From Anaerobaca lacustris (GTDB lineage: Bacteria > Planctomycetota > Phycisphaerae > Sedimentisphaerales > Anaerobacaceae): 64,000 bases of DNA. The position numbers and the translations under genes were made by a program. Shown here in pieces: positions 3,032 through 60,219 of the stretch (within the stretch, counting starts at the first letter, position 1; every line of letters begins with the position of its first letter). Location: contig NZ_JASCXX010000005.1 in NCBI RefSeq assembly GCF_030012215.1, positions 124,001 through 188,000 of the forward strand, in the 5' to 3' direction. The notes under the pieces were generated by a model. It saw only the letters and a list, made by a program, of their open reading frames with translations, had not been told where the DNA came from and ran no database searches.

Positions 3032-3187
3032 TCTTATCCTTTCTGCGTGTGCCAGGACCGGCATCTTAGCGGCGTTTTCGGCGTCGCTCAAGAGATTCGC
3101 GTGATTCCGGAAAGACGCCGGTCAACCGAAACGGTAGAATGATCGTCATAGCGAGTGGAAAGGGTTCTTTCTTGGAAGGATAGATCG

Positions 3188-35178: not shown

Positions 35179-35433
35179 ATGAATATTGCGCAGAAACTCA
35201 AACAGGTCATTGTCGAAGACCTGAATCTCGATGAGGTTACGCCTGACGAGATCAAAGATGACGCGCCGCTGTTCGGCGAGGGCCTGGGCCTGGATTCGCT
35301 CGACGCGGTGGAGTTGGTGGTTGTCGTCAAGCGGCATTTTGGCGTCGAAATCAAGGATATGAGTGAGGGGCGGGAGGCGTTCGCTTCGATCAACGCGCTG
35401 ACGAGGTTCATTGAGGAGCACATGCAGGGATGA
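35179..35433 (+). CDS. Acyl carrier protein (first of two)
   Basis: 84 residues, four helices. The phosphopantetheine attachment site is LGLDSLDAVEL with Ser40. The acidic helix 2 (DSLDAVELVVVVKRHFGVEI) fits binding by ketosynthases. Opens the cluster and overlaps the next ketosynthase by ATGA, so the carrier and its first enzyme are coupled. Its sequence differs clearly from the second carrier at 46426, so the two probably carry different chains, for example starter and growing acyl groups. Housekeeping AcpP is possible but the context argues for a dedicated carrier. Confidence 0.92.
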   Translation: MNIAQKLKQVIVEDLNLDEVTPDEIKDDAPLFGEGLGLDSLDAVELVVVVKRHFGVEIKDMSEGREAFASINALTRFIEEHMQG

Positions 35434-36620
35434 CGCATGCGAGCAAGGCGATCCCGATCACGGGACTCGGCTGTCTCTGCGCCGCGGGCGGTACGGTTCC
35501 GGAGGTTGTCGAGACTCTGTTCGCCGGGCAGCGCAACGTGCAGTACCGACCTGCGGGAGGTCATCGCTACCCTGTGTTCCAGTTGGCCTCCAAGGATGCA
35601 CCTCCAGGATACTTCGAGGGGCCGGAATGCGAGCGTTGCGGCCGATTGGCCGTGACGGCGGCGCGCGAGGCTCTCGTGCACGCCGGACTGACGGACGAAC
35701 ATCTCCAGACCCGCACCGTCGGCGTCTGCATCGGGACGACCGTTGGCAGCGCCATGAACAACGAGGCCTTCTATCGTCTCTTTCGCGAAGGCCGGATGCC
35801 CGGCATCGAGCCGATTCGACGCTACCTTCGCACCAATCCCGCCTCCATGGTGGCCCGCGCCCTTGGCCTGACCGGGCCCTGCCAGACGATTGTCAATGCG
35901 TGTTCGTCGGGAAGCGTCGCCATCGGCCATGCGGGCGCGTGGGTCAAGGCCGGGATTTGCGACGTGGCCATTGCCGGCGGGGCTGACATGCTCTGCAATG
36001 TCATTCACGCGGGCTTTCTGTCCCTGTTGATCACCGACAGCGAGCCCTGTCGGCCCTTCGACCGCCATCGCCAGGGTCTGAATCTTGGGGAAGGAGCGGG
36101 TGTGGTCGTGCTGGAATCGGAGCAGTCGGTCCGGCGGCGGGACGCGGCGGTGCAAGCCCGGCTGTGTGGCTACGGCAACGCCTGTGACGCGTACCACATC
36201 TCGGCACCGGAGCCCACGGGCCGAGGGTTGAAGCAGGCGATCGCCCTGGCGATGGCCGAGGCGCAGGTCGCCCCCCACGAGATCGATTTCATCAACGCCC
36301 ACGGCACGGGGACGCCGGAGAACGATCGCGTGGAAGGACGGGTCTTTCCGGAATTGTTCCCCGGAGTCCCTTTCAGCTCCACCAAAGGCTTCACGGGCCA
36401 TACGCTGGGCGCTTCGGGCGGAATCGAGGCCGTGATTACCACGATGTGCCTGCAACGCAAGCAGGTTGTGGCCAACATCGGCTTCGAGGAGCCCGACCCG
36501 GAATTCGCCGGTCAGCCGGTGGTGGAGAACACCCCGATCCGGGGTCGCTATGGCCTGTCTGATTCGGTCGCGTTTGGTGGAAACAACGCCGTGTTGATCC
36601 TCCAGGAGGCAGGCGCATGA
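35430..36620 (+). CDS. Beta-ketoacyl-ACP synthase, first pair, active subunit
   Basis: 396 residues, thiolase fold. The complete catalytic triad is present: Cys158 in VNACSSGS, His291 in NAHGTGTPEND and His324 in KGFTGHTLGASGG. It extends an acyl-ACP by condensation with malonyl-ACP and loss of CO2. Its stop overlaps the start of a second, degenerate ketosynthase (ATGA), an arrangement like KS-alpha and chain-length-factor pairs in type II polyketide and aryl polyene systems, so the two are proposed to form a heterodimer. The start overlaps the acyl carrier gene. Confidence 0.92.
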   Translation: MTHASKAIPITGLGCLCAAGGTVPEVVETLFAGQRNVQYRPAGGHRYPVFQLASKDAPPGYFEGPECERCGRLAVTAAREALVHAGLTDEHLQTRTVGVCIGTTVGSAMNNEAFYRLFREGRMPGIEPIRRYLRTNPASMVARALGLTGPCQTIVNACSSGSVAIGHAGAWVKAGICDVAIAGGADMLCNVIHAGFLSLLITDSEPCRPFDRHRQGLNLGEGAGVVVLESEQSVRRRDAAVQARLCGYGNACDAYHISAPEPTGRGLKQAIALAMAEAQVAPHEIDFINAHGTGTPENDRVEGRVFPELFPGVPFSSTKGFTGHTLGASGGIEAVITTMCLQRKQVVANIGFEEPDPEFAGQPVVENTPIRGRYGLSDSVAFGGNNAVLILQEAGA

Positions 36621-37660
36621 TGGGGCCGAGGCTTGCGATTGCCGGAGTGGGCCTTGTGGGTGGATTTGGCACAGGCAAACAGGCGTTGCTCGACGTCCTG
36701 TCGAACGGAGGTCGTCCCAACGCAACGGTAGACGTGAATGCGCCGTCCGGCCCGCGCCAATTGCCGGTCTACCAGGCCGACGTGGATGGCGCCCGGCGAT
36801 TCATCGGCGGCGGCGCCTGGAGACGCATGAATCGTTTCGGCAAGCTGGCGGTGCTGGGGGCTTCACTGGCCCTTGAAGACGCCGGCTGGAATGCCCCCCT
36901 CGACCGAGAGGACGTCGGCCTGATCGTGGCGAGCGGATATGGGGCGTCGAAGAGCACCTTCGATTTCCTCGATTCCATGCTGGAGGACGAGGGCCGCTGT
37001 CCGTCGCCCACGCTCTTCTCCAATTCGGTGGCCTCATCGGCCGCCTCTCATCTGAGCATCGTATTGCAGTCGGGCGGACCGTCGCTGACGGTGAGCCAGT
37101 TCGAGATGTCGCCTCTCTCGGCGCTGCTGACGGCCTCGACGTGGCTGGCGGAGGGCCGGGTCAAAGCGGTCCTGTTCGGCGCCGTCGACGAGTGGTGTCC
37201 CGTGCTGAGCTACAGTTACGAGCGTTTCTTCGGGGAACAGACCTCCGGGCCGATCGAGCCGTTCCGCTGGGACAAACAGACGGCGGTCATGGGCGAAGGC
37301 GCCGCCTTTCTGTTGTTGACGCACGGCGAGGACGCCGGGACGACGTATGGCCAGATCGACCAACTCCTCTGGACGCAAAGTGCGCGTTGGCTGCCCCCTC
37401 GCGACGAGGCGCTCGTGATCGGGGCCGACGGACACCGCTGCTATGCCAAGCAGTATGCGCGTCTGTCAGAGAGCCATCCGGCGTGTACGGCGTACACCCC
37501 TCTCTACGGCAGTCTGCCGGGGGGACAGGCCTTCGATTTGGCGATCGCGGCGCTCGCAGCGAAGGTCGGACAAGGTCCCGACCGGATCTGGTCGGTCAAG
37601 TGCGACGCCGACGGCAATTGCGGAGTGGTGGCATGTCGTTTCGGTCCTGGCCAAGAGTAA
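36617..37660 (+). CDS. Degenerate ketosynthase, chain-length-factor-like partner
   Basis: 347 residues. The fold is recognisable (FGKLAVLGASLALEDAG, GPSLTVSQFEMSPLSALLTA, MGEGAAFLLL), but the catalytic residues are gone: ungapped alignment puts Glu163 at the cysteine position with Gln161 nearby, and the two histidine motifs are replaced by ADGHRCYAKQ and GSLPGGQAF. The protein therefore cannot condense by itself and should act as a partner that shapes the chain, as chain-length factors do. It overlaps the active subunit by 4 bases and the next gene by 28 bases. Confidence 0.82.
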   Translation: MMGPRLAIAGVGLVGGFGTGKQALLDVLSNGGRPNATVDVNAPSGPRQLPVYQADVDGARRFIGGGAWRRMNRFGKLAVLGASLALEDAGWNAPLDREDVGLIVASGYGASKSTFDFLDSMLEDEGRCPSPTLFSNSVASSAASHLSIVLQSGGPSLTVSQFEMSPLSALLTASTWLAEGRVKAVLFGAVDEWCPVLSYSYERFFGEQTSGPIEPFRWDKQTAVMGEGAAFLLLTHGEDAGTTYGQIDQLLWTQSARWLPPRDEALVIGADGHRCYAKQYARLSESHPACTAYTPLYGSLPGGQAFDLAIAALAAKVGQGPDRIWSVKCDADGNCGVVACRFGPGQE

Positions 37661-38427: not shown

Positions 38428-39006
38428 ATGGTACGAACAGCAAGAACGGGAATCGCGTTGTTGTCGTGTCTGTTTTTCCTGGTGTGTGCGGGATGCAGCA
38501 GCCCGGGAGGGACGGTGCCGCAGGAGAGTCGCTACACGCGTTACAATCTCCACTATATTTCACAAAAAGGCAACAACGTGGCCAGCTATGCCAACTTTAC
38601 CGACTACGAGGGACACGACTTCCTGCCTTACAACACCAAGGTGGAGGTCAAGAAGTGGAAGCGCGGATACGAGATCACGGCGGTGGACAGCGGTATGGTT
38701 ATTCTGTTCGATTACAGCAGTAAGAACATGGATGGCATGATCGGCAGCGACTACCTCGATCTGATTCTGTCTGCGAGTCCGGTCAGCTACAGCGACTTGA
38801 CGCCGGAGGACGAGCAGGGAATCCGGCAAGGCAAGCCCATCGTAGGCATGACCAAGCAAGGCATCATGATTGCCTTGGGGTATCCCGCCAAGCACCGCAC
38901 ACCGTCGCTGGATGACAATACATGGGCTTACTGGAGGGGTCGGATTGGTGAGCCAAAGTTGGTGAACTTCGATGGCAGTGGCAAAGTTGTTTCCATCACA
39001 AATTAG
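38428..39006 (+). CDS. Lipoprotein with BamE/SmpA-like C-terminal region
   Basis: 192 residues. Signal and lipobox FFLVCAGC, mature lipoprotein Cys at residue 23. The mature part is beta-rich; the segment GIRQGKPIVGMTKQGIMIALG looks like the SmpA/OmlA (BamE) motif in which G-M-T-x-x-x-V starts a helix, and it ends with a strand-turn (NTWAYWRGRIGEPKLVNF). Position before a LolA-like gene suggests a role in building or stabilising the outer-membrane lipid product's route. TGTAAGGAGAAAGGCC precedes ATG 38428. The BamE likeness is moderate. Confidence 0.65.
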   Translation: MVRTARTGIALLSCLFFLVCAGCSSPGGTVPQESRYTRYNLHYISQKGNNVASYANFTDYEGHDFLPYNTKVEVKKWKRGYEITAVDSGMVILFDYSSKNMDGMIGSDYLDLILSASPVSYSDLTPEDEQGIRQGKPIVGMTKQGIMIALGYPAKHRTPSLDDNTWAYWRGRIGEPKLVNFDGSGKVVSITN

Positions 39007-39760
39007 GACCGTTGCAGCCGGCGCTCCTGTGGCGTGGGCCCTTTGTCTCGCCATTCTGATGGCGGCGGCGGACGGTCCCCGCTCGTACGCCGGTCAAGAG
39101 CAGACCGATTCGGCGCAGCAGCCGCCTTTGCTGCGGCTGCTGCGCGAGTCGCGAGCCCCCTACCACACCGTGGCCGTCCAATTCACGCAGACCAAGCGTC
39201 TCACGATTCTGGATGTCACGCTCAAATCGGAAGGCATGATCTTCTTCCGCCGGCCGGGACTCATCCGCTATGAGATCATCTCTCCCGTCCGATCGCTTCT
39301 GCTTCACGACACCAAGAAGGCGCAGTGCTACGCCTTCACCGAGGGGCGGTGGGAACTGCTTCGGAGCCCCGGCGCCACGGCTGTGGGCCGCGTTCTCCGA
39401 CAGATCGGCCATTGGATCCAGGGCGATTTCGACACCGACCAGAAGATGTTCCTTCTGACCGTCTTGCCGTGGGACCAAGGGGCGGGCTGTATTCGACTGA
39501 CGCCTCGCAGCGAGGGTCTGGCCGAGTACATTCAGGGCGTCAGCATCTATGTGGATGAGGGGCCCGACTATCAGGTCAGGCGGGTGGTTATCCACGAGTC
39601 GGATGTGGATACGACGGAACTGCTCTTCGGCCGGGAGCGACGGAACAAGCCGATTCCGGAGCAAACGTTCGTTTCGCCGGATGCTTCCGAGGCCTGCGTG
39701 GATTTCTTTCGCCAGACACAACAAGACGACCCGAACGACGTCGAGACACCTCCATCTTGA
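38972..39760 (+). CDS. LolA-like outer-membrane lipid/lipoprotein carrier
   Basis: 262 residues. Signal-like N-terminus (VAWALCLAILMAAADG) followed by the half-barrel of LolA: HTVAVQFTQTKRLTILDVTLKSEG, FFRRPGLIRYEI, then LLLHDTKKAQCY. LolA carries lipoproteins through the periplasm; LolA-like proteins coded inside aryl polyene gene clusters are thought to move the polyene lipid. A 35-base overlap with the preceding lipoprotein gene and TTGA overlap with the next one tie it to the operon. ApeL-type role proposed. Confidence 0.8.
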   Translation: MAVAKLFPSQIRTVAAGAPVAWALCLAILMAAADGPRSYAGQEQTDSAQQPPLLRLLRESRAPYHTVAVQFTQTKRLTILDVTLKSEGMIFFRRPGLIRYEIISPVRSLLLHDTKKAQCYAFTEGRWELLRSPGATAVGRVLRQIGHWIQGDFDTDQKMFLLTVLPWDQGAGCIRLTPRSEGLAEYIQGVSIYVDEGPDYQVRRVVIHESDVDTTELLFGRERRNKPIPEQTFVSPDASEACVDFFRQTQQDDPNDVETPPS

Positions 39761-41517: not shown

Positions 41518-41613
41518 AGCGGTGATTTGACAAACGGCGCGATACGACATGGAGACAAGAATGCCAGTTGCAGTCGGCGGACACAACGGACCTCTGAAGG
41601 AGATGACGCGACC

Positions 41614-42339
41614 ATGACTCGGGATGTCGCCCTGATTACAGGCGCATCGAGGGGGATCGGCGCCGCCGTCGCGATTCGTCTGGCCCAGGACGGATACGAT
41701 ATCTGGCTGAACTATCGCAGCAATCACGAGGCCGCCCAGGAGGTGGCCCGTCAGATCGCCGACCTGCAGCGACGGTGTGTCCTGTTGCCGTTCGACGTGT
41801 CCGACGACGCAGCCGCTGCCGAGGCCCTGGGGCCTCTCCTCAAGGAGCAGACCCCTTACATTCTGGTCAACAACGCGGGCATCAATCGCGACGGTCTGCT
41901 GTTCTGGATGTCTCGGAAAGACTGGAAAGACGTGCTCGACGCCAGCCTGGACGGGTTCTACCATGTGACCAGCCGGGTGGTCGGCCTGATGATGCAGAAG
42001 AAGCGCGGACGCATCGTCAACATCGTATCGACGTCAGGACAGACCGGGATGCCCGGACAGGTGAACTATTCGGCCGCCAAAGCGGGCCTGATCGGCGCCA
42101 CCAAGGCCCTGGCCAAAGAGGTCGCACGGAGCGGGGTCCTGGTCAACGCGGTGTCTCCGGGGTTCATCGAAACGGACATGACCAAGGACCTGCCCAAGGC
42201 AGATCTGCTCAAGATGGTCCCCCTTCGGCGTTTCGGTACGGCGGCCGAAGTGGCGGGCGCCGTGGCCTTCTTGTGTTCCGACGACGCGGCCTATGTCACA
42301 GGCCACGTTCTCAACGTCAACGGTGGGATCCACGTGTGA
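41614..42339 (+). CDS. 3-oxoacyl-ACP reductase (FabG-type)
   Basis: 241 residues, short-chain dehydrogenase. Cofactor motif TGASRGIGAA (10-19), NNAG at 86-89 and catalytic Ser139, Tyr152 and Lys156 (VNYSAAK) are all present. It reduces the 3-keto group to hydroxy with NADPH after each condensation. GAAGGAGA stands upstream of ATG 41614. It opens the second long transcript and is 55 bases before a ketosynthase. By analogy with aryl polyene pathways it is the dedicated ketoreductase (ApeQ role); it could also serve normal fatty acid synthesis. Confidence 0.92.
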   Translation: MTRDVALITGASRGIGAAVAIRLAQDGYDIWLNYRSNHEAAQEVARQIADLQRRCVLLPFDVSDDAAAAEALGPLLKEQTPYILVNNAGINRDGLLFWMSRKDWKDVLDASLDGFYHVTSRVVGLMMQKKRGRIVNIVSTSGQTGMPGQVNYSAAKAGLIGATKALAKEVARSGVLVNAVSPGFIETDMTKDLPKADLLKMVPLRRFGTAAEVAGAVAFLCSDDAAYVTGHVLNVNGGIHV

Positions 42340-43731: not shown

Positions 43732-45168
43732 ATGGCAATGGGACCTTCGAAGTACGATACCGTGGTCATTGGCGGAGGGATGTCGGGCTTGACCTGTGCC
43801 GCGCTTCAGGCCCGCAGAGGCAAGCGCGTCGCCGTGGTCGAGAGTGGCCCTCACCCGTCGCCCACGTTGCGCGGTTTCACGCGGAAGGGAATCTACCTCG
43901 ATTCCGGATTCCATTACGGCGGCTCGGCCGGCGAGGGCGGATTGTTGCCCCACCTCCTGGGGCAACTGGGCGCTTCGGGGGCATTGGAGGGCCGCCTGCA
44001 CACCCTCAGAGCCTTCGATCGGGTCCGCTTCCTGAAGCCGGACTTCGAGTTTGCCTTCCCACAGGGCTGGGAGGCCCTCGAACAGGCCCTGTGCGAGGCG
44101 TTTCCCTCTGACGCCGACGCCGTGGGGCAATTCCTCCGCCAGGTCAAAACCCTGTGGCACCAGGGAAAAGCCACGTTCCTGGCCGACTATGGCAAGAGTC
44201 TTGGGACCCTCTTTTTCGGCAACGGATGCAGCGCCCAGGAGGCCATCGATCGCTGCACGGCAAATCCCGTGTTGGCGGCTCTGCTCAGTTGCCACGGCAT
44301 TCTGTACGGGACGGGCGCACACGAGACGTCTCTGATCTTTCACAGCCTGGTTGTCGGTTCCTTTTACGAGTCGGCCTGCATGGTTCGAGGTGGCGGCCGG
44401 GTCGTCGTCGAGGCCCTGGAGGCTGTGTTGCAGGAGGCCGGAGTGGACCTCGTGTGTGGCCACAAGGTCGTCGGTGTGCGGGGGAACGACCAGGGTGCAT
44501 TTGCCGCCGCCGAACTGGACAGCGGAGATTGCTTGACCGCCCGTTGCTGTATCAGTACGATACATCCAAAATGTCTGCTTGAATTGGTGCCGTCGCACGC
44601 ATTCTCACCAGCGTACCGGCGGCGTATCCTCGGATTGGAGGAGACGCCATCGGCCGTCGTTTTGTTTGGACGCTGTCCATCAGCGGCGTTCTCAGGCAAT
44701 CTGATTCTGCTGGGTGAACCGCGTGCGATTCCTTGTTGGCAGAGATTGCCTTTGGAAGAACGCCCGTTGTTTGTCAGCGTGGCGCCGATGAACGACGGTG
44801 CCGTCTCGATCATTTGTCCGGCGACTCTGGACGACATACCGGGATGGGACGGCCGGGAGAAACGGCCGGAAGGATATCAGGACTGGAAAAAGGGCCTCGC
44901 CGACAGGCTGAGCCGGCACGTGGCGACCCACGCGGGCGACCTTCTGGGGCGCTTTGACCTGCTGGATGTGGCGACCCCGCTGACGTTTCGAGACTGGCTG
45001 GGCAGTCCTGAGGGCGGGCTCTACGGAGTCAAACACCGTCTGGTGGATCTGCCCTTGCTGCCGCGAACGCGCATGCAGGGGCTCTATCTGTCGGGGCAGG
45101 CGATTGTTGCCCCCGGCGTGCTGGGGGCATTGTGCGCCGGGTTCCTGACAGACAGCTACGTGAGTTGA
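43732..45168 (+). CDS. Phytoene-desaturase-like FAD-dependent oxidoreductase
   Basis: 478 residues. Dinucleotide-binding motif VVIGGGMSGLTCAALQARRGKRVAVVE near the N-terminus, RGGGRVVVEALEAVLQEAGVDLV in the middle and GLYLSGQAIVAPGVLGALCAGF at the C-terminus: the pattern of CrtI/CrtNO carotenoid desaturases and isomerases. Probable action is FAD-dependent desaturation or isomerisation of a long conjugated chain. Enzymes of this kind are found in flexirubin and some aryl polyene clusters and in the fatty acid clusters proposed for ladderane lipids in anammox planctomycetes. Substrate therefore should be the chain made by neighbouring enzymes, not a carotenoid (inference). Confidence 0.82.
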   Translation: MAMGPSKYDTVVIGGGMSGLTCAALQARRGKRVAVVESGPHPSPTLRGFTRKGIYLDSGFHYGGSAGEGGLLPHLLGQLGASGALEGRLHTLRAFDRVRFLKPDFEFAFPQGWEALEQALCEAFPSDADAVGQFLRQVKTLWHQGKATFLADYGKSLGTLFFGNGCSAQEAIDRCTANPVLAALLSCHGILYGTGAHETSLIFHSLVVGSFYESACMVRGGGRVVVEALEAVLQEAGVDLVCGHKVVGVRGNDQGAFAAAELDSGDCLTARCCISTIHPKCLLELVPSHAFSPAYRRRILGLEETPSAVVLFGRCPSAAFSGNLILLGEPRAIPCWQRLPLEERPLFVSVAPMNDGAVSIICPATLDDIPGWDGREKRPEGYQDWKKGLADRLSRHVATHAGDLLGRFDLLDVATPLTFRDWLGSPEGGLYGVKHRLVDLPLLPRTRMQGLYLSGQAIVAPGVLGALCAGFLTDSYVS

Positions 45169-45194: not shown

Positions 45195-46436
45195 ATGCCG
45201 CAACACCGCGTCGTAATCACAGGCCTGGGGGCGGTCTCTCCCTTGGGCACTGGGGTTCGGCAGATGTGGGAGGGCTTGCTGGAAGGACGCACAGGCGTGC
45301 GCCACAGTCCCGCTCTGTCCGCGGTCAGCGGCCTGCGCACGACAGTGGCGGCTTCGGCGCCCGAGGTGGACGCGACCGGGATCGATCGCAAGAAACGGCG
45401 ATACATGTCGCCGATGTCCGTTTACGCGACGATCGCCGCCCGCGAGGCCTTGCAGATGGCGTCGTTGACCGCCGAACAGGTGCAGGGACCGCGCACCGGC
45501 GTCTGTTTCGGCTCGACCACCGGCAGCTCACAGGAAACAGAGAGTTTCTTCCAGACGATGCTCCGGACCGGCAGCGTTGCGAGTCTGAAGTCCACGCATT
45601 TTTTCAAGATCATGAATTCTTCGTGTGCGGCAAATCTGGCCCAGGCGCTGGGAATCTGTGGGCGCCTGCTGGCGCCGTCGGCGGCCTGTGCGACGGGTAC
45701 GATCGCCATTGGCCTGGCCGCCGAAGCCATCGCCGCGGGCAAACAGGAGATTATGATCGCCGGCGGAGCAGACGAATTGCACCCGTTGACGGTGGCGGTT
45801 TTCGACACGTTCGAGGCCTCTTCCCGCGCCTACAACGATCGGCCCGATCTGACGCCTCGTCCGTTCGACAAGGATCGCGATGGGATCGTCTGCGGCGAAG
45901 GCGCCGGGGCCGTCGTGCTGGAGGCATTGGAGCACGCCCAGGCGCGGCAGGCTGAAATTCTCGGAGAGATTCGGGGCTTCGCGATCAACAGCGCTCCGAA
46001 CGACATCGCCAATCCGGACGTCGATTCAATGGTCCAGTGCATGACCGCCGCGATGGACGAATCGGGGTTGCCGAAGGCGTCCGTCGATTATATCAACGCC
46101 CATGCCACGGGGACCGTACAGGGAGACGAGGCGGAGGCGCAGGCGATCGAGAGCGTATTCGGCCGTGAGACCCCCGTCAGCAGTCTCAAGGGGCACATGG
46201 GGCACACCATGGCGGCTTGCGGCGCGTTGGAATCGATTGCCACGTTGCTGATGATGCGGCAAGGCGTGTTGGTGCCGACGCGGAACTTGCAGGAGCCCGA
46301 TGCGACGTGCCGCCGTTTGAATTTGCCGAAGGCCGTCGAGCGCCGACCGATGAGCGTTGCGATGGTCAATAGCTTTGCGCTCGGCGGCGTCAACTCCGCC
46401 ATGGTGATCAGTGGGAGATTCGACAGTGACCGATGA
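45195..46436 (+). CDS. Beta-ketoacyl-ACP synthase II-like
   Basis: 413 residues, FabF-like in length and in the N-terminus VVITGLGAVSPLG. Triad present: Cys165 (PSAACATGT), His303 (NAHATGTVQGDE) and His337 (LKGHMGHTMAACGA). GAAGGAGATACCT lies before ATG 45195. Its stop overlaps the GTG start of the second acyl carrier, suggesting that this synthase works with that carrier. Third active synthase in the cluster; which chain length each handles cannot be read from sequence. Confidence 0.92.
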   Translation: MPQHRVVITGLGAVSPLGTGVRQMWEGLLEGRTGVRHSPALSAVSGLRTTVAASAPEVDATGIDRKKRRYMSPMSVYATIAAREALQMASLTAEQVQGPRTGVCFGSTTGSSQETESFFQTMLRTGSVASLKSTHFFKIMNSSCAANLAQALGICGRLLAPSAACATGTIAIGLAAEAIAAGKQEIMIAGGADELHPLTVAVFDTFEASSRAYNDRPDLTPRPFDKDRDGIVCGEGAGAVVLEALEHAQARQAEILGEIRGFAINSAPNDIANPDVDSMVQCMTAAMDESGLPKASVDYINAHATGTVQGDEAEAQAIESVFGRETPVSSLKGHMGHTMAACGALESIATLLMMRQGVLVPTRNLQEPDATCRRLNLPKAVERRPMSVAMVNSFALGGVNSAMVISGRFDSDR

Positions 46437-46683
46437 GAAAGTGATTGAGGTTGTCAACCAGAGCCTGGCCGAGGAGTTCGAGGTCGATCCGGAGACGTTA
46501 AAGCCCGAAGCGCACCTCATAGAAGACCTGGGGTTTGACAGTCTCGATTTCGTGGATATGGTGGTCGTCTTGCAGGAAGCGTTCGGCGTGATGCTGAGAG
46601 AAGAGCCGCGCGTCCGCGAGGTGAGGACGCTGGGCGATCTGCACCGCCTGGTGATCGACAAGAAACGAGAGCTCGAGTCGTAA
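46426..46683 (+). CDS. Acyl carrier protein (second)
   Basis: 85 residues with phosphopantetheine site DLGFDSLDFVDM, Ser39. GTG start at 46426 chosen because GGGAG stands eight bases upstream, inside the end of the preceding ketosynthase gene; GTG 46411 is another possibility. Helix 2 (SLDFVDMVVVLQEAFGVML) is less acidic than that of the first carrier. Lies between a ketosynthase and an acyltransferase, as one of two carriers in aryl polyene clusters. Confidence 0.9.
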   Translation: MTDEKVIEVVNQSLAEEFEVDPETLKPEAHLIEDLGFDSLDFVDMVVVLQEAFGVMLREEPRVREVRTLGDLHRLVIDKKRELES

Positions 46684-46741
46684 TGCAGCAGAGATGGGTT
46701 CACGATCGCCGGACATTTACCGATCGGCCGGAGCAGACCGC

Positions 46742-47542
46742 ATGAGAGCAAACAGTCCTGAGGCAGTAGGGCCGCCGTATCTTGAGCAAAAGCCGGCCTC
46801 TGCGCTGACGATCGTTCTCATGAACATCTGGGTTCCACTGCTCATGGTCCTCGAGACCGCGATCGGCATCGTCCTTATTCCACTGGGGTTGCTCGTGTGG
46901 CGACTGGTTACGCGGTGGCCCCTGGCCAGGATCATGCGCCATTTCGTCTGGATCTACGGGCGCGTCTGGATGTGGATCGTCTCGCCGTTCGTTCGCTTCG
47001 AACTGGTCGGGGCCGATCGCGAATGGGCCAAGCGACCCATCATGTACGTCGCCAATCACCTGTCGTTCGTCGATATCTTCTGTCTGTCGGCCATGCCCGT
47101 CTTCGACGTCATCATTTGCCTGCGGGCCTGGCCGTTCAAAATGGTGTGGTTTGCGCCGTTCATGCGTCTGGCCGAGTACCTGGACGTGGAGTCCCTGCCC
47201 TGGGACGAGATTGTAGCCAAGAGCAAGAGCGTCTTCCGCGCGGACCGGTCGATGCTGGTCTTTCCCCAGGGCCATCGCAGCCGGGACGGTCGGCTCGGGC
47301 GCTTCTACTCCGGCGCTTTCAGGCTGGCGCTTCAGTCCGGCGTTCCCATCGTCCCGATCTGCATCGCGGGCACCGACCGGGTCTCTCCGCCGGGGCGCCG
47401 ATGGCTGGAGCCGTCCCGCGTGCGCATCGAATGTCTCGAACCGATCGATCCGAAGCAGTTCGAAGGCGATCTGGGGCACATTGAGTTGCGTCGAACCGTC
47501 AAACAGAGAATGGAGGCCTGCCTTGCACGGTTGTGCGCCTGA
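46742..47542 (+). CDS. 1-acyl-glycerol-3-phosphate-type acyltransferase (LPLAT/PlsC family)
   Basis: 266 residues. Two hydrophobic segments at about 22-55 and 65-85 hold it in the inner membrane. Catalytic HX4D is NHLSFVD (His106, Asp111); the second block is VFPQGHRSRDGRLGRF and the third PIVPICIAGTDR. It transfers acyl groups from carrier protein or CoA to a lipid alcohol. Aryl polyene clusters have a PlsC-like protein at this spot (ApeD role). ATG 46742 has GGAG eight bases before it; an ATG at 46694 gives 16 more residues. Confidence 0.85.
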   Translation: MRANSPEAVGPPYLEQKPASALTIVLMNIWVPLLMVLETAIGIVLIPLGLLVWRLVTRWPLARIMRHFVWIYGRVWMWIVSPFVRFELVGADREWAKRPIMYVANHLSFVDIFCLSAMPVFDVIICLRAWPFKMVWFAPFMRLAEYLDVESLPWDEIVAKSKSVFRADRSMLVFPQGHRSRDGRLGRFYSGAFRLALQSGVPIVPICIAGTDRVSPPGRRWLEPSRVRIECLEPIDPKQFEGDLGHIELRRTVKQRMEACLARLCA

Positions 47543-48899
47543 TTCGTCGAGGGACGGTCGGGGCAACGCCCTGGCCGGCCTGGAGCCCGCCGAAGCCCTG
47601 GCCTTTGCGTCGGCGCCGGAGATCGAGGCGTGCGCCAACCGCCTTCTGCAACGGCACGTGCAGTACTGCTACGAGCGATCCGATTTTTATCGGTCCCACT
47701 TCGACCGTCTCGGCCTCGACGCCGGGGATATACGATGCGTCGCCGACCTGCGGAAGCTGCCCTTCACCACGAAGGACGACCTGGCCGAACATGGGGCGCG
47801 GCTGCGATGCGTCGCGCCGCGCGACATCGTCGATCTGTGCCAGACCTCCGGCACCACCGGTGCGCCTGTCACGCTCGAGCTGACCGAGTTGGACCTCCAG
47901 CGGCTGGCGTACAACGAGCAGTCCTGCTTCGAAGCGGCCGGTCTGACGGCCGACGACCGCGTGATCGTGGCCTGTGCGATGGGGCGTTGCTTCATGGCGG
48001 GGCTGGCGTATTTCGAGGGATTGCGTCGGCTGGGCGCCACGGCGATCCGGATCGGGGCCGGACGCCCCGCCGTCCTGGCCGAAGCCGTGCGTATCCACAG
48101 ACCCACCGCCGTTGTCGGGGTGCCGTCCAACCTGCTGCAAACAGGCAAGCTGTTGCAGAGCCGGGGCATCGAGCCGTCTCAGATGGGCGTCGCCAGACTC
48201 ATTCTGATCGGCGAACCCATACGCGAGGCGGATCTGTCGCTCTCAGCCCTGGGCCGGCGTCTGAGCGAATTGTGGAAGGCGCAGGTGCTGGGGACTTATG
48301 CGAGCACGGAAATGGCCACCTCTTTCGCGGAGTGCGACGGGGGTTCCGGCGGCGGGCACGTCCTGGCCGATCTGATTGTCGTCGAGATCGTGGACGAGGC
48401 CGGCAATGCCGTCGCGCCGGGCGAACCGGGCGAAGTGGTCGCCACGCCGCTCCAGGTGACCGGGATGCCGCTGCTGCGACTCCGGACGGGAGACATTGCG
48501 GCTCTGCTTCCGGGGCCTTGTGCCTGTGGCCGCCGGACACCGCGCCTGGGGCCCGTGCTGGGCCGCAAGGCTCAGATGTTGAAAGTGCAAGGCACCACGC
48601 TGTATCCGGCCTCCATCTTCGCCGCGTTGCAGGAGATCGAGGAGGTGCGGAATTACTATATCGAGATCGAGCAGGACTACGAACTGTCCGATCACCCTCG
48701 CGTGGTGGTCGGTCTCGAAGACGGTGCCTCTATGACCCGTGAGGAAATTGCCGGTCGGATCTGCGGCCGCGTGCGCGTCACCCTCGACGTGGCGATCGCC
48801 ACCCCCGAGGAAGTCGCGAAACGGACACTGCTGGAGAACCGGCGCAAGCCGATGCTGGTGTTTGACTATCGCCACAAGACCAAGAAAGGACCTGCGTAA
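47523..48899 (+). CDS. AMP-dependent aryl-acid ligase (phenylacetate-CoA-ligase-like)
   Basis: 458 residues, adenylate-forming enzyme. Nucleotide motif TSGTTGAP at 108-115; LGTYASTEMATS is the A5 region, and RTGDIAALLPGPCACGRRTPRLGPV matches PaaK-like ligases. It activates an aryl acid with ATP and passes it to CoA or an acyl carrier. Start TTG at 47523 is inferred from GGAGG six bases before; it overlaps the acyltransferase by 20 bases. Next to an ammonia-lyase, it should activate the aryl acrylate made by that enzyme as a starter unit (ApeH role in aryl polyenes). Confidence 0.87.
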   Translation: MHGCAPDSSRDGRGNALAGLEPAEALAFASAPEIEACANRLLQRHVQYCYERSDFYRSHFDRLGLDAGDIRCVADLRKLPFTTKDDLAEHGARLRCVAPRDIVDLCQTSGTTGAPVTLELTELDLQRLAYNEQSCFEAAGLTADDRVIVACAMGRCFMAGLAYFEGLRRLGATAIRIGAGRPAVLAEAVRIHRPTAVVGVPSNLLQTGKLLQSRGIEPSQMGVARLILIGEPIREADLSLSALGRRLSELWKAQVLGTYASTEMATSFAECDGGSGGGHVLADLIVVEIVDEAGNAVAPGEPGEVVATPLQVTGMPLLRLRTGDIAALLPGPCACGRRTPRLGPVLGRKAQMLKVQGTTLYPASIFAALQEIEEVRNYYIEIEQDYELSDHPRVVVGLEDGASMTREEIAGRICGRVRVTLDVAIATPEEVAKRTLLENRRKPMLVFDYRHKTKKGPA

Positions 48900-48900
48900 G

Positions 48901-50499
48901 ATGAAACGACCGGAGGTCGTTCTCAACGGCAATGATCTGAGCGTCGATGATATCGTCGCGGTTGGCATAGGGGACAAAACGGTGGCCCTGGCCCCATCCG
49001 CCCTTGAGCGGTGCCGGCGAAGCCGGACGTTTCTCGAAGCGCAGGTGGCCGCGCGCAACGTGATCTACGGCGTCAACACGTCCTTTGGGCCGATGTGCAA
49101 CAAGATCATCGGCGACGACGAACTGGAAGCCCTCCAGGTAAATCTGATTCGCAGCCATGCGGCGGGCCTGGGAGACCCTCTGAAATACTACATCGCTCAG
49201 GCTGTGATGGTCGTGCGGCTGAACACGCTGCTCAAAGGCTACAGCGGCGTGCGGATCGAGCTTCTCGAATTGATGCGAGAGATGATCAACCGGGGCATCG
49301 CCCCGTATATTCCCGAATGCGGCAGCGTCGGCGCCTCAGGCGATCTGGTGCACCTGGCCCACATGGCCCTGGCCCTCATCGGCGAAGGGCAGGCCTTCCA
49401 CAAAGGCCGGCTGACAAGCGCTCGGGAGGCGTTGCAGGCCGAAGGGCTGGAACCGATCCGGCTGAGTTTCAAGGAAGGGATCGCCCTGATCAACGGAACC
49501 AGCGCGATGACGGCGCTGGCGGCCTTTGCGCTGTTCGGCGCCCGAAAGCTGCTGTCGTTGAGCTGCGTGACCGCGGCCTTTGCCCTGGAGATCTTCGGGG
49601 GGATTGACGACGCCTTCGACGAGGACCTGCACCTGCTCAAGCCCCATCCGGGTCAGCAGCAGATCGCCGAGACGGTTCGCCGCTTGTATCACGGATCGCA
49701 CAACATCACGCTGCGCGACGAGATGCACGGGCGCATCCGCCGCGAAGAGGTCAAAGGCGCGTATTTCGAAACCAGCGTCAACGTTCAGGACGTGTATTCG
49801 ATTCGGTGCACCCCGCAGATTCTTGCGCCCGTCCAGGAGAATCTGGACCAGGCCGCCGCGACGATCCACATCGAAGCCAATTCGGTCAATGACAATCCGG
49901 TGATCATTCCGGAGAAGAACAAGGTCATCCACGGCGGCAACTTCCACGGTCAGAGCATCGCCTTTGCCATGGACGCCCTGTGTATGGCGATTGCCGAGAT
50001 AAGCACGTTGAGCGAGCGGCGGATCAACAAGCTGCTGGACAAGAACCTCAACGAAGGCCTGCCCGAGCTGCTGATCGCCGGAACGGTGGGCCTGACCATG
50101 GGATTCATGGGGGCCCAGTACGTGGCCACCTCGACCACGGCCGAGAATCGGCAGTTGGCCAATCCGGTCGGCACGCTGTCGATTAGCTGCAATGCGTCGA
50201 ATCAGGACGTGGTCAGCATGGGCACGGTCGCGGCGCGAAAGGCGTTCCGGGCGGTGAGCAACGCCAAGCACATTCTGACGGTCGAGGTACTTGCAGACCT
50301 TCAGGCTCTGTACTTCCGTGGCGCCGGGGGCCTCGGGAACGGCTGTCGGCGCATTCACGACTTGCTGTCCGAGCACTTCGTCGTCTACGACAACGGGCGG
50401 ATCTTCCACGACGAGCTGGTGAAGTTTCGCAAGCTGCTCTTTTCGAGCCAGTTGTTCGACGATCTCAATGTGTATTGTGATGGAGACTGTGCGTCATGA
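48901..50499 (+). CDS. Aromatic amino acid ammonia-lyase (HAL/PAL/TAL family)
   Basis: 532 residues. The MIO prosthetic group forms from Ala145-Ser146-Gly147 in GSVGASGDLVHLAH; the catalytic Tyr56 is in YGVNTSFGP. NDNPVI and SISCNASNQDVVSMG are other conserved blocks. The residues that often tell substrate preference read RSHAAGLG, with Ser-His as in histidine lyases, so the sequence alone points to histidine while the location beside an aryl-acid ligase points to tyrosine or phenylalanine. Its product, 4-coumarate or cinnamate, would be the aryl starter. Stop overlaps the next dehydratase by ATGA. No other histidine-degradation genes are present nearby. Confidence 0.87.
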   Translation: MKRPEVVLNGNDLSVDDIVAVGIGDKTVALAPSALERCRRSRTFLEAQVAARNVIYGVNTSFGPMCNKIIGDDELEALQVNLIRSHAAGLGDPLKYYIAQAVMVVRLNTLLKGYSGVRIELLELMREMINRGIAPYIPECGSVGASGDLVHLAHMALALIGEGQAFHKGRLTSAREALQAEGLEPIRLSFKEGIALINGTSAMTALAAFALFGARKLLSLSCVTAAFALEIFGGIDDAFDEDLHLLKPHPGQQQIAETVRRLYHGSHNITLRDEMHGRIRREEVKGAYFETSVNVQDVYSIRCTPQILAPVQENLDQAAATIHIEANSVNDNPVIIPEKNKVIHGGNFHGQSIAFAMDALCMAIAEISTLSERRINKLLDKNLNEGLPELLIAGTVGLTMGFMGAQYVATSTTAENRQLANPVGTLSISCNASNQDVVSMGTVAARKAFRAVSNAKHILTVEVLADLQALYFRGAGGLGNGCRRIHDLLSEHFVVYDNGRIFHDELVKFRKLLFSSQLFDDLNVYCDGDCAS

Positions 50500-50936
50500 C
50501 GTTGCCTGCCGACACAGAGCAATTCATGCTGCATCGCGCGCCCATGCGGCTGGTCCAGCGGCTCCTGCGCGTTGACGGCGATCAGGCCGAGGCCGAAGCC
50601 CGGCTCGAACCCGGCGACGTCGGGGTCGGTCCGGACGGAAAGGTGGAGCGAACGGCCCTCATGGAAATGGTGGCCCAGACCTATGCGGCCGCACGAGGCT
50701 ATCTCGATCTGGCCGAGGACGCCTCTCCGGCCCTGGGGTATCTGGTCGGAGTCGGCGATTTTCGCGTCATCCGTGCGCCGCAAGCCGGTGAGCGGCTGCG
50801 CATCGAGGTCCAGTCGGCCAATTCCTTCGAGGATTTCTACGCGGTGGAGGGATGCGTTCGCTGCCGGGACGAGATCCTGGCGACGGGAACGCTCAAGGTC
50901 TGGCAGCAACCCCAGACGGGACCCCAGACCGCGTAA
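50496..50936 (+). CDS. Hotdog-fold 3-hydroxyacyl-ACP dehydratase (first)
   Basis: 146 residues. N-terminal FMLHRAPMRLVQRL carries the catalytic histidine in the LPHR-like motif of the aryl-polyene dehydratase (ApeP-type) family; the central ALMEMVAQTYAAARGY replaces the usual long hotdog helix. It removes water from a 3-hydroxyacyl carrier to give an enoyl group, which remains unreduced in polyene pathways since no enoyl reductase is coded here. Overlaps the ammonia-lyase stop (ATGA). Two different dehydratases in one cluster is the aryl polyene rule. Confidence 0.8.
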   Translation: MTLPADTEQFMLHRAPMRLVQRLLRVDGDQAEAEARLEPGDVGVGPDGKVERTALMEMVAQTYAAARGYLDLAEDASPALGYLVGVGDFRVIRAPQAGERLRIEVQSANSFEDFYAVEGCVRCRDEILATGTLKVWQQPQTGPQTA

Positions 50937-50965: not shown

Positions 50966-53416
50966 ATGCGTTCGCACAAGCTTTCGTTGGAGTCGGTTTT
51001 GCGCTCTCAATTCCAGACAAATCTCATCGGTCAAACCGTGACGTGGGTCTTTCGGATCGGAGACCGTCATCGGCGAACTCTGGGACTGTGCCTGCTGGCG
51101 CTGACGCTTCTCGGCGGCTGGCTGGCCTTGCAGGTGTCCACGGAAGAGGATATCGCCGTGATGCTTCCGGACAGCGATCCGGTGTTTGCCGCCAGCTATG
51201 CTCTGCTCAAGAAGGCCCCATTTTCGCGCAGCGTGTTGATCGATCTGGAGGCTCCCGTCGAAGGCCAAGCCGCCCTGCTGGCCCAGACGGCCGAGCGCTT
51301 GCGGGAACGCTTGCAGCCGCCCTGGATTTCGCAGGTGATTGGAGGGATGTCGATGGAGTCGGGCGCCCGGCTCCTGGACGGCCTCTTCGCACACATGCCG
51401 CAACTGTTCACGGAGGAGGACGCCGCCGCGCTGGCGGCGAGAATGGCCCCGGAGCAGGTGGGCGAAACGTTGCAGACCAGTCTCAACGCGCTCAGCGGCC
51501 CCGAAGGTCTCTGGCTGGCCCGATGGCTCAGCCGCGACCCGCTGGCCTTTCGCAATCAGGCGTTCCGCAAACTGGCGACGGTCGCCGTGCTCCCCGACGT
51601 CGGGATCGAGGATGGGGCGCTGATCGATCCGACCGGCCGGCACACCCTGTTGGTGGCCGAAACACCGGTGTCGATGGAGGACTCGCAGGGCAGCGAACAG
51701 TTGCTTCGGTATCTCGATGAGGTCATGGCCGAGGTCGTTCCCGATACGCTCACCGCGCGTGTGGTGTGCGCCCATCGCTACACCGTCGCCAACGCCCGCG
51801 CCATCAAGCGCGACCTGGTGGTGGTTTTTGCCGTCTCTTGCGTGGGACTCATCGCGGTGTTCGTGTCTCTTCTGCGGCACTGGCGGGCGGTGTTCGTCTT
51901 CCTGGTCCCGGTGTTTGCCATTCTGGCCGGCGTGCTGGCGACGGCGGCGGTCTTTCGCATGATCTCCGTGATGACGGTCGGGTTCGGGGCCGTGCTGCTG
52001 GGCATATCGGTGGACTATGGGTTGCACGTGTTTTTTGGCCTGGGCCAGCGGCAATCGGATCGAGCGGGATACATGTCACGGCTGGCCGTGCCGATGGTCG
52101 TCTCGTGCGCCACGACCGTCGGCGTCTTCGCCGTGCTGCTGTGGTCGGGCCTGCCGATTCAGCGCCAGCTCTCGATCTTCTCCATCGCCGGACTGCTGAC
52201 GGCATTGGTCCTGGCGATTGCCTGGTTGCCGCACTGGATGGCCGAACAGAAGGCGGGCCGATGGATGGCGATCCCGGAAATCGGCGGCAAGGGGCGGCGC
52301 TGGGTCGTCGCGATCTGGCTCGTCCTGCTGATCGCCTGTGCGCCTTTCTGTCTGCGAGTCAGGTTCGACGGCGACTTGCGCAATGTCGGACTGACGCCCG
52401 AGGACGTGTTGGCCGACGAATACGCCATACGCGACGCCTGGGGAGACCCGCGCGGCCAGGCGCTGGTCGTGGCTCAATCCGACGATGTCCAGTCCACCTT
52501 GGAGATGAACGAGCAGGTCTACGCCCAACTGGCTGAACTCTGGGGACCGGGGGAGCTGATCAGCCTGGCGCCTCTGCTGCCGAGCCGAGCCACGCAAGAG
52601 GCGAACCTGGACCGCTGGCGCCGATTCTGGCACGAGGAGGGCCGACTGGATCGGCTGCGCCAGACCCTCGGCGCCGAGGGCGGCAAACTGGGGTTCACAC
52701 AGGAGGCATTTGCGCCGTTCTTTACGTGGGTTGAGCGGGATCGCGCACCGTTTGACGTGGTGGAATTCAAGCAGCTTGCCGGCTCTCTGCTGGACCTGCT
52801 GTTCCTGTCGCGTTCGGAGGGCCTGGGCCTGATCAGTCTCGTTCCGGATAACGAGCAGACCATCGAAGCGTTCGGCGCCGGCGGCCTGGCCTTGCCGCCG
52901 GGCGTCGAGGCCATCTCGCAGAAGTGGTTTGCCTCCATCCTTCGCCGGTCGCTGGAAAAGGACTTTCAACGATTTCTTCTGCTGGCGTCCGTCGTCGTCG
53001 TGATCGTGCTGATCGCGGCGTTGCACCGTCCGTCGGAAGTGCTCCTGTGCCTGCTGCCGCCTGTGACGGGGCTGGCGTTCATGCTGGCCGTCATGGGGCT
53101 GTTGGGCATGAGCGTGAACATGTTCAACGTCGCAGCGAGCGTGCTGGTCATGGGACTCAGCATCGACTACGGCGTCTTTATCGTGCGGTCCCGCTGGGCG
53201 TCCGGACCGGTCCGAGACGGCGCAGCCGAACGAGCGGTCGTCACCTCGGCGCTGACCACACTCTGCGGCTTCGGCGCGCTGTCGGTGGCCCGCCATCCGG
53301 CGATGTTCTCCCTTGGCATCACGGTTGTTTTGGGTATAATCCCTGCTATGGTCTGTGCCCTTCTGGTCATACCTGCATTGCAGCACCGGACCACTGGCGA
53401 ATTGGAATCACGATGA
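50966..53416 (+). CDS. MMPL-family (RND) lipid exporter
   Basis: 816 residues with 12 predicted membrane segments in two halves, each with a large periplasmic loop after the first helix (VSTEEDIAVMLPDSDPVF in the first). Repeated helix blocks (GFGAVLLGISVDYGLHVFF and AASVLVMGLSIDYGVFIV) carry the acidic Asp-Tyr pair used in proton relay. MMPL/HpnN-type exporters take hydrophobic lipids from the inner membrane. In aryl polyene clusters such a protein (ApeM role) hands the polyene lipid to LolA-like carriers. Its stop overlaps the next gene by ATGA. Confidence 0.88.
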   Translation: MRSHKLSLESVLRSQFQTNLIGQTVTWVFRIGDRHRRTLGLCLLALTLLGGWLALQVSTEEDIAVMLPDSDPVFAASYALLKKAPFSRSVLIDLEAPVEGQAALLAQTAERLRERLQPPWISQVIGGMSMESGARLLDGLFAHMPQLFTEEDAAALAARMAPEQVGETLQTSLNALSGPEGLWLARWLSRDPLAFRNQAFRKLATVAVLPDVGIEDGALIDPTGRHTLLVAETPVSMEDSQGSEQLLRYLDEVMAEVVPDTLTARVVCAHRYTVANARAIKRDLVVVFAVSCVGLIAVFVSLLRHWRAVFVFLVPVFAILAGVLATAAVFRMISVMTVGFGAVLLGISVDYGLHVFFGLGQRQSDRAGYMSRLAVPMVVSCATTVGVFAVLLWSGLPIQRQLSIFSIAGLLTALVLAIAWLPHWMAEQKAGRWMAIPEIGGKGRRWVVAIWLVLLIACAPFCLRVRFDGDLRNVGLTPEDVLADEYAIRDAWGDPRGQALVVAQSDDVQSTLEMNEQVYAQLAELWGPGELISLAPLLPSRATQEANLDRWRRFWHEEGRLDRLRQTLGAEGGKLGFTQEAFAPFFTWVERDRAPFDVVEFKQLAGSLLDLLFLSRSEGLGLISLVPDNEQTIEAFGAGGLALPPGVEAISQKWFASILRRSLEKDFQRFLLLASVVVVIVLIAALHRPSEVLLCLLPPVTGLAFMLAVMGLLGMSVNMFNVAASVLVMGLSIDYGVFIVRSRWASGPVRDGAAERAVVTSALTTLCGFGALSVARHPAMFSLGITVVLGIIPAMVCALLVIPALQHRTTGELESR

Positions 53417-53805
53417 AACCACTGAGGAATGAAATTCTGGCGTGTGCAGAGGGCCCCGTGCTCAGCCGCGAGGACGATCGGGCCTTCGAGCTGACGTACC
53501 ACTTCGGCAAGGACTTCACCGCGTTCGCCGGCCATTTTCCGGGCCGTCCGATTCTGCCGGCCTTCGTGCAACTGCTGGCCGGCGAGTGTGCGATGCAGAC
53601 CCGCGCGCGGCGCGAGGTGGTCTTGCAGCGGGTCAAGCGGGCCAAGTTTCTCAAGCCGATTCAGCCGGACCAGAAGATCACAGTGTGTTGGCGCGAACAG
53701 CCGGCGGACGGTGGGGTGCGAGGCAGCTTCACGCTCCTCGCTGACGGGGAGAAAGCGGCCACGTTCACTCTCGAGATGACGGTGACGGGGCAGGCTGATG
53801 TATAA
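53413..53805 (+). CDS. 3-hydroxyacyl-ACP dehydratase (FabZ/ApeI-like, second)
   Basis: 130 residues, hotdog fold. FAGHFPGRPILPAFVQLLAGE contains the catalytic His41 (HFPxRPxxP) and the acidic Glu58. KRAKFLKPIQPDQKI is the usual second block. It dehydrates 3-hydroxyacyl carriers. Overlaps the exporter upstream and the thioesterase downstream by 4 and 8 bases. The ApeI family has the same FxGHFPGxPILPA core. The pair of dehydratases and absent enoyl reductase predict a conjugated polyene rather than a saturated chain. Confidence 0.88.
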   Translation: MKPLRNEILACAEGPVLSREDDRAFELTYHFGKDFTAFAGHFPGRPILPAFVQLLAGECAMQTRARREVVLQRVKRAKFLKPIQPDQKITVCWREQPADGGVRGSFTLLADGEKAATFTLEMTVTGQADV

Positions 53806-54259
53806 ACCGTATTTCCGCGCCATACCCGGAGCGCCACCGCCCTTGCGGCTCACCTTGAATCGGCAAGTCCGCTTCGAAGAGGTGGATTCGATGGGGGTTG
53901 TCTGGCACGGACGTTACCCCAGCTTTTTCGAGGATGGCCGTGTGGCTTTGGGACGCCGGTACGGGATCAGCTATTCCGATTTCATCCGCGAAGGGGTCCC
54001 GGTCCCGGTGCGGCAGATACAGATCGACTACTGTCATCCCCTGAGGTTTGAGGACGAATTCGAAATCGAGACGATCCTGCATTGGTCGGACGCGGCCCGC
54101 ATCAATTTCGAGTATGCCATCCGCAATCTGCAGGGCCGGCTCGTGGCCACCGGGTGCACCGTGCAACTGATGCTGGACCGCGATTTCAACCTGCTTCTGG
54201 GACCGCCGCCCTTCTTCGCCGAGTTTCTGCGGCGGTGGAGACAGGGGGATCTGGTTTGA
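53798..54259 (+). CDS. Acyl-thioesterase (4HBT hotdog family)
   Basis: 153 residues. Active-site block VRFEEVDSMGVVWHGRYPSFFEDGRVALG with Asp30 and His37 matches 4-hydroxybenzoyl-CoA-type thioesterases (ApeK role in aryl polyene sets). It frees acyl chains from carrier protein or CoA, either to release product or to correct wrong starter units. Overlaps neighbours by 8 and 4 bases. Confidence 0.88.
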   Translation: MYKPYFRAIPGAPPPLRLTLNRQVRFEEVDSMGVVWHGRYPSFFEDGRVALGRRYGISYSDFIREGVPVPVRQIQIDYCHPLRFEDEFEIETILHWSDAARINFEYAIRNLQGRLVATGCTVQLMLDRDFNLLLGPPPFFAEFLRRWRQGDLV

Positions 54260-60217: not shown

Positions 60218-60219
60218 GC

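Follow-up and report, generated by a model that had tools for sequence, protein, structure and literature searches.

A CrtI-fold protein between two ketosynthases of an aryl-polyene/flexirubin-type cluster: probably an enzyme of polyene lipid modification, not of carotenoid synthesis

What does a protein that resembles phytoene desaturases do between two ketosynthases, in the middle of a gene cluster for fatty acid or polyene synthesis? This question is raised by a gene of Anaerobaca lacustris, and an earlier note on the same DNA had answered that its product, here called P0001, probably acts on the acyl chain. The window, a stretch of 64,000 nucleotides from contig NZ_JASCXX010000005.1, contains a cluster of about 27 kb (35.2 to 62.3 kb) in which every recognised biosynthetic gene lies on the + strand (Table 1). 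Judging from its genes, this is an aryl-polyene/flexirubin-type cluster encoding three B12-binding radical-SAM proteins. Aromatic starter genes, a ketosynthase/chain-length factor (KS/CLF) pair, a ketoreductase (KR), a dehydratase (DH, a weak match), an acyl carrier protein (ACP), an exporter, and LolA, the criteria for aryl-polyene clusters, are all present. The solved structure nearest to the cluster's ammonia-lyase is a tyrosine aminomutase, and its selectivity position reads Ser-His. Since FlxA, a tested tyrosine ammonia-lyase, is also reported with a HAL-like motif at this position (PMC3992019), tyrosine is a plausible substrate. No Rfam elements were found in the window, so nothing points to control of the B12 enzymes by a cobalamin riboswitch. 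The window also encodes a complete serpin (3155-4462, 414.6 bits), a type of protein uncommon in bacteria.

Table 1. Features of the cluster in window coordinates
Feature	Position	Strand	Remarks
Acyl carrier protein ACP1	35179..35433	+	GLDSL
Ketosynthase KS1	35430..36620	+	active Cys NACSSG
Chain-length-factor-like KS, partner of KS1	36617..37660	+	without active-site Cys
Small lipoprotein	38428..39006	+	31-41% identical homologues in clade-A loci
LolA-like carrier	38972..39760	+	Pfam
FabG-type ketoreductase	41527..42339	+	Pfam
Ketosynthase KS2, upstream of P0001 gene	42293..43618	+	SAACSSG; likely ATG start near 42395
CrtI-fold FAD-dependent oxidoreductase P0001 (putative)	43732..45168	+	478 aa; profile matches, tree, motif tally, AlphaFold2 model
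Ketosynthase KS3, downstream of P0001 gene	45132..46436	+	SAACATG; likely ATG start 45195
Acyl carrier protein ACP2	46411..46683	+	GFDSL
1-Acylglycerol-phosphate-type acyltransferase	46694..47542	+	Pfam
AMP-dependent aryl/acyl-CoA ligase, phenylacetyl-CoA-ligase-like	47481..48899	+	PF00501 56.4 bits
Aromatic amino acid ammonia-lyase (MIO)	48739..50499	+	PF00221 563.9 bits
Hot-dog dehydratase, ApeP-like	50496..50936	+	weak Pfam match, 16.1 vs cut-off 27 bits; also position
MMPL/RND-family exporter	50966..53416	+	Pfam
4HBT thioesterase	53798..54259	+	Pfam
Ketosynthase KS4	54082..55386	+	active Cys NAACASA; true start inside ORF
KS5, shortened chain-length-factor-like KS	55349..56120	+	without active-site Cys; start approximate
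B12-binding radical SAM protein 1	56117..57385	+	CxxxCxxC
B12-binding radical SAM protein 2	57400..58785	+	CxxxCxxC; start approximate
B12-binding radical SAM protein 3	58748..60217	+	CxxxCxxC
Family-2 glycosyltransferase with DUF2062	59998..61407	+	Pfam
Lipid A acyltransferase-like (LpxL)	61397..62332	+	Pfam

The frame of P0001 is intact and open upstream as far as a GTG at 43558, and the annotated ATG is a plausible start since homology begins at about residue 6. As the earlier note had it, the gene is flanked by two ketosynthases; KS2 and KS3 are both intact and both have the active-site Cys. P0001 is more than a chance ORF, because nine other genomes have full-length relatives (30-39% identity) in this very slot, flanked by the same KS pair. 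The N-terminus carries the FAD/NAD Rossmann motif VVIGGGMSGL and the C-terminus reads GLYLSGQ..APGVLG. Amino_oxidase (PF01593) matches with 52.7 bits (cut-off 19.8), while P0001 reaches 78.1 bits against the CrtD model (cut-off 549.7) and 55 bits against the CrtI family TIGR02734 (curated cut-off 238.1). An AlphaFold2 model from a 35-sequence alignment (mean pLDDT 89.6, pTM 0.90) is closest to the gamma-carotenoid desaturase 4rep (Z 35.1, 435 residues, 15% identity), with archaeal oxidoreductases and the plant phytoene desaturase 5mog as other near folds; 2b9w, a polyunsaturated-fatty-acid double-bond isomerase of the same superfamily, aligns with Z 24.9. The two-domain FAD fold predicted by the model and the GxGxxG motif place P0001 in the CrtI/amine-oxidase fold superfamily, though such similarity of a modelled fold does not reveal which reaction is catalysed. 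In the clade to which P0001 belongs (clade A), P0001 included, the FAD motif of the CrtI/amine-oxidase type is without its GG doublet (residues 43-44, window 43858-43863); clade A mostly has SP or AP there, and clades B-F retain GG. Because of this loss, we treat P0001 as a presumed user of FAD.

Several lines of evidence bear on whether P0001 could be a carotenoid desaturase. In agreement with the earlier note, no prenyltransferase or phytoene synthase was found among the window ORFs scanned with Pfam, and SQS_PSY, the squalene/phytoene-synthase family, had no match anywhere in the organism's own genome, which is 98% complete. Of 23 genomes from clades A and B and their near relatives, 22 likewise gave no phytoene/squalene synthase. 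Within the window's phylum, 24 of 29 genomes with a KS-linked CrtI-like gene have such a synthase, always on a different contig, and in planctomycete-group genomes the synthase adjoins a true CrtI in 7 of 11. In CrtI, P54 and T55 are part of the pocket, and R148, D149, and R152 are the proposed catalytic residues (PMC3382138). Our alignment showed no counterpart of any of these in P0001: the segment with R148/D149/R152 is missing, and P0001 has G59-F60-H61 where CrtI has a Gly-Pro-Thr/Ser pocket motif near the flavin. Gly-x-His occurs in all 58 rows tallied from the KS-linked groups, and Gly-Pro-Thr/Ser in all 14 CrtI sequences above the family cut-off. In a tree of 69 rows (LG+C20; support values are bootstrap/SH-aLRT), true CrtI formed a single clade (100/100) without P0001, which fell into a KS-linked clade of 41 rows (100/99), and a wider tree of 158 rows also put P0001 outside true CrtI. 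With the CRTISO model TIGR02730, no reference sequence in the window's phylum was over the cut-off. Judged by gene content, motif, and tree, with the phylogeny that the earlier note had proposed and the synthase search among them, P0001 is evidently not a carotenoid desaturase.

Clade A itself is supported at 100/97 and joins clade B at 99/97. The nearest relative of P0001 comes from Planctomycetes bacterium B3_Pla (L090), followed by proteins of Desulfobacterales, Geobacteraceae, Desulfuromonas, and Desulfonatronovibrio, with clade-A identities of 35-39%. Clade B, whose hosts include Nitrospirota, Omnitrophota, Kiritimatiellota, and Lentisphaerota, has the arrangement FabG-CrtI-KS3 without KS2, and the proteins of Bacteroidota flexirubin-type clusters also fall within the 41-row clade. 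The sister clade in the tree (97/97) shares the signature G-x-H-Y-x-G, Arg378, and Lys386; this sister clade is presumably retinol-saturase-like. Relatives were sought by a genome scan with a 4-sequence alignment, a 17-sequence alignment having no sufficiently conserved stretch. By sequence, the P0001 family is a separate, uncharacterised enzyme family of the CrtI fold.

Other CrtI-like genes were seen in the same survey. L141, a flavobacterial flexirubin-type locus, has two, one in P0001's clade and the other in a separate Bacteroidota clade. A further distant clade (GGLNSFY...DVGLHA; L126, L133, L135, L143, L147, and others), seen in Pirellulaceae, Opitutaceae, and Bacteriovorax, is encoded about 1.5 kb downstream of a KS, and some of its loci have a second CrtI-like gene close by.

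The gene company of the family is nearly constant. In the wider sampling, a KS lay within 10 kb in 58 of 63 clade members, with the KS adjacent in 52/63 and FabG present in 49/63, while true CrtI scored 0/14 on all three counts. This association is not a selection artefact, since the loci were gathered by protein homology alone. Together with the position outside CrtI, the lost motif, and the absent synthase, it gives good support to the earlier proposal that the enzyme probably acts on the acyl chain.

The cluster as a whole is conserved as well. Collinear versions were found in Geobacteraceae (L082 and L226), Desulfonatronovibrio (L086 and L227), a deltaproteobacterium (L087/L228), and a planctomycete (L090 and L225). 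The broadly shared order is FabG or KS2, CrtI-like gene, KS3, ACP2, acyltransferase, ligase, ammonia-lyase, dehydratase, and exporter, followed by thioesterase, KS4, KS5, radical-SAM genes, and glycosyltransferase (GT) and/or LpxL, with ACP1, KS1, and CLF beyond. An ammonia-lyase was not found in the L086 locus, the homologue of the third radical-SAM gene in L090 stands apart on the opposite strand, and the L228 sequence ends inside the GT. Victivallis vadensis has a B form of the cluster that contains two radical-SAM genes and is collinear in part. From these loci, the cluster of about 20 genes, CrtI-like and radical-SAM genes included, appears as a widespread cluster type across several phyla. 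Orthologues of radical-SAM protein 1 with 62-74% identity occur in 20 of 23 clade-A/B genomes from many phyla, a conservation far above that of the CrtI-like protein. Radical-SAM protein 1 is a good marker gene for the cluster type, and it may perform the cluster's defining chemistry. Within the genus the cluster is patchily distributed, since neither the CrtI-like gene nor the ammonia-lyase was found in five further congeneric genomes (G001-G005).

Our preferred reading, which we consider probable, is that P0001, as an FAD-dependent enzyme with the CrtI fold and a member of the KS/FabG-linked clade, modifies the acyl-bound aryl-polyene chain. The direct observations on P0001 are its fold, its clade, the loss of the CrtI pocket motif, its position by KS and ketoreductase genes, and the absence of carotenoid genes. 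In such a pathway, an aromatic acid starter would be supplied by the ammonia-lyase and then the AMP-ligase, extended on ACP by KS/CLF, FabG, and dehydratase to a conjugated aryl polyene, joined to lipid, and exported. P0001 would hold the long hydrophobic polyene, bound to ACP or lipid, in a tunnel equivalent to the carotene tunnel of CrtI and alter its double bonds. Most likely this would be either an E/Z isomerisation that is redox-neutral and uses reduced flavin, as in CRTISO and anaerobic CrtI, or a single two-electron hydrogenation or dehydrogenation. We are fairly confident that the substrate is a PKS-made chain. If it is, an isomerase would be our tentative first choice; a reductase and a dehydrogenase or aromatising enzyme are each less probable, and some other reaction is rather improbable. 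We prefer isomerisation or saturation to desaturation because all double bonds of a polyene already come from the KS/KR/DH cycle and because aryl polyenes of the E. coli type do not require an enzyme of this kind. Most organisms carrying the KS-linked gene presumably belong to anaerobe lineages. CrtI and CRTISO have isomerase activity with reduced FAD, and CrtI isomerises polyenes anaerobically (PMC3382138).

Dehydrogenation or aromatisation would fit better if the chain were cyclised or partly unsaturated, as it may be. In this rival reading, the radical-SAM enzymes or a 6-pi electrocyclisation would close a ring in the polyene, which P0001 would then oxidise, by analogy with the desaturation proposed for cinnamoyl-lipid (skyllamycin/kitacinnamycin). 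In cinnamoyl clusters, an isomerase and a last desaturation accompany KS-alpha/KS-beta, KR, and DH (PMC6510318), and the three B12-radical-SAM enzymes could possibly cyclise the chain. However, a ring can be obtained from an amino acid via the ammonia-lyase, so that no ring-building is needed, and flexirubin-type clusters keep the CrtI-like gene though the flexirubin ring comes from tyrosine (PMC3992019). We therefore consider an aromatase unlikely. The same estimate applies to a saturase or reductase that, like retinol saturase, would remove one polyene double bond and leave a defined break in the conjugation. The signature of the sister clade and its presumed likeness to retinol saturase are consistent with this, but flexirubin clusters, too, have the CrtI-like gene, and the flexirubin polyene is fully conjugated.

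A comparison with anammox homologues had also been suggested in the earlier note. In a further reading, P0001 would be an orthologue of the Kuenenia 'phytoene desaturases' kuste3336/kuste3607 in a ladderane-type route, with acyl desaturation before radical cyclisation. Genes for phytoene-desaturase-like (PD-like) proteins, radical SAM, AMP-ligase, GT, and KS do occur together in anammox-type loci and in published clusters (PMC2649909, PMC4790861), but the anammox-type proteins group in a clade apart (99/93) beyond a 97/97 branch from P0001 and share 20-24% identity with it. Separate clades and low identity largely refute orthology, and we hold this reading to be very improbable. Loci were assigned to anammox by gene order as in kuste3603-3608/kuste3335-3344 (PMC4790861) and by FabZ matches to 8ayd/7qv0, because the hydrazine-synthase domain PF18582 proved unspecific as a marker: it matched the organism's own genome and was not found in the presumed Brocadiaceae family f53. 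The matches in the own genome are four consecutive ones to the hydrazine-synthase alpha domain in large ORFs (C47, 3290-16607). Hardly credible, finally, is a true C30/C40 carotenoid desaturase or isomerase recruited beside the cluster, for although CrtD/CrtI are the top profile matches and a carotenoid desaturase the top fold, the scores are far below curated cut-offs, P0001 lies outside the CrtI clade, a phytoene/squalene synthase is absent, and the pocket motif is lost.

The most likely function of P0001 is thus to modify the chain of a polyene lipid, not to make carotenoids. Many KS-linked genes are probably annotated as phytoene desaturase or generic oxidoreductase, and carotenoid synthesis may be wrongly inferred from them; a simple rule drawn from tree, motif, and neighbourhood separates the KS-linked family from true CrtI. 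As the P0001 type and the desaturase-like proteins of anammox bacteria are not orthologues, evidence is not transferable between them without a test, which bears on the ladderane question. The conserved cluster suggests that anaerobe lineages have a polyene lipid not yet characterised; a culturable type strain, Victivallis vadensis DSM 14823, carries the B form of the cluster. It is conceivable, though we would not yet bet on it, that the clade acts on aryl polyenes bound to ACP or lipid by a new FAD-dependent activity which, with the B12-radical-SAM enzymes, leads to an undescribed anaerobe-associated polyene membrane lipid common to Desulfobacterota, Nitrospirota, Omnitrophota, Lentisphaerota, and Planctomycetota. 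Our literature search found no work joining aryl polyenes with phytoene dehydrogenase, aryl polyenes and flexirubin with radical SAM, or skyllamycin with phytoene dehydrogenase.

Among known systems, flexirubin-type clusters (flx of Chitinophaga pinensis and plasmid pPP6 of Persicobacter psychrovividus) have much in common with the window: ammonia-lyase, FabG, KS/CLF, two ACPs, acyltransferases, thioesterase, LolA, MMPL exporter, GT/DUF2062, AMP-ligase, and a CrtI-like FAD oxidoreductase of the same clade. Unlike them, the window has the CrtI-like gene placed between KS2 and KS3 and carries three B12-radical-SAM genes, and no AAT/C45 'ligase-like' gene, polysaccharide deacetylase, or methyltransferase was recognised in it. 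The dialkylresorcinol genes darA/darB were not recognised among the Pfam-scanned window genes either; in C. pinensis they are located elsewhere (PMC3992019). The annotated order on the Persicobacter plasmid is ammonia-lyase, FabG, KS, ACP, LolA, GT, exporter, FAD oxidoreductase, AAT/C45, and AMP-ligase. In flexirubin-type clusters the CrtI-like gene adjoins the exporter and the ester-forming gene, not a KS, and the enzyme may therefore act late. The Chitinophaga flx genes include the tyrosine ammonia-lyase (TAL) FlxA, the ligase FlxY, the ligase-like FlxW, and the reductase FlxV (PMC3992019); by its position, we infer that the FAD gene is FlxV.

Deltaproteobacterial FASII clusters of Desulfotalea, Geobacter, and Pelobacter have the same mix of PD-like, radical-SAM, phenylacetyl-CoA-ligase-like, and GT genes (Rattray 2009, PMC2649909). 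The clade-A loci come mainly from the same bacterial groups, and from the description they probably belong to one cluster type. Synthesis of polyunsaturated fatty acids (PUFA)/hydrocarbons or ladderanes was proposed for the FASII clusters (PMC2649909), whereas the window's ammonia-lyase points to an aryl polyene. The anammox proteins kuste3607/kuste3336 are like P0001 in being CrtI-like and linked to KS and radical-SAM genes, and made no lycopene in E. coli (PMC4790861), but differ in clade and identity as described above. CrtI, CrtD, and CRTISO are like P0001 in fold and FAD motifs but unlike it in clade, pocket motif, score, and gene company. The E. coli ape pathway shares KS/CLF, KR, DH, ACPs, acyltransferases, thioesterase, a LolA-like protein, and the logic of an RND exporter, but its scheme has no FAD desaturase-like or radical-SAM step and starts from 4-hydroxybenzoate (PMC8253772). 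The earlier view that the CrtI-like enzyme and the radical-SAM trio set this cluster apart thus holds against the E. coli-type aryl polyene scheme but not against flexirubin-type clusters, which carry a gene of the same clade, and the entire cluster is shared by several phyla.
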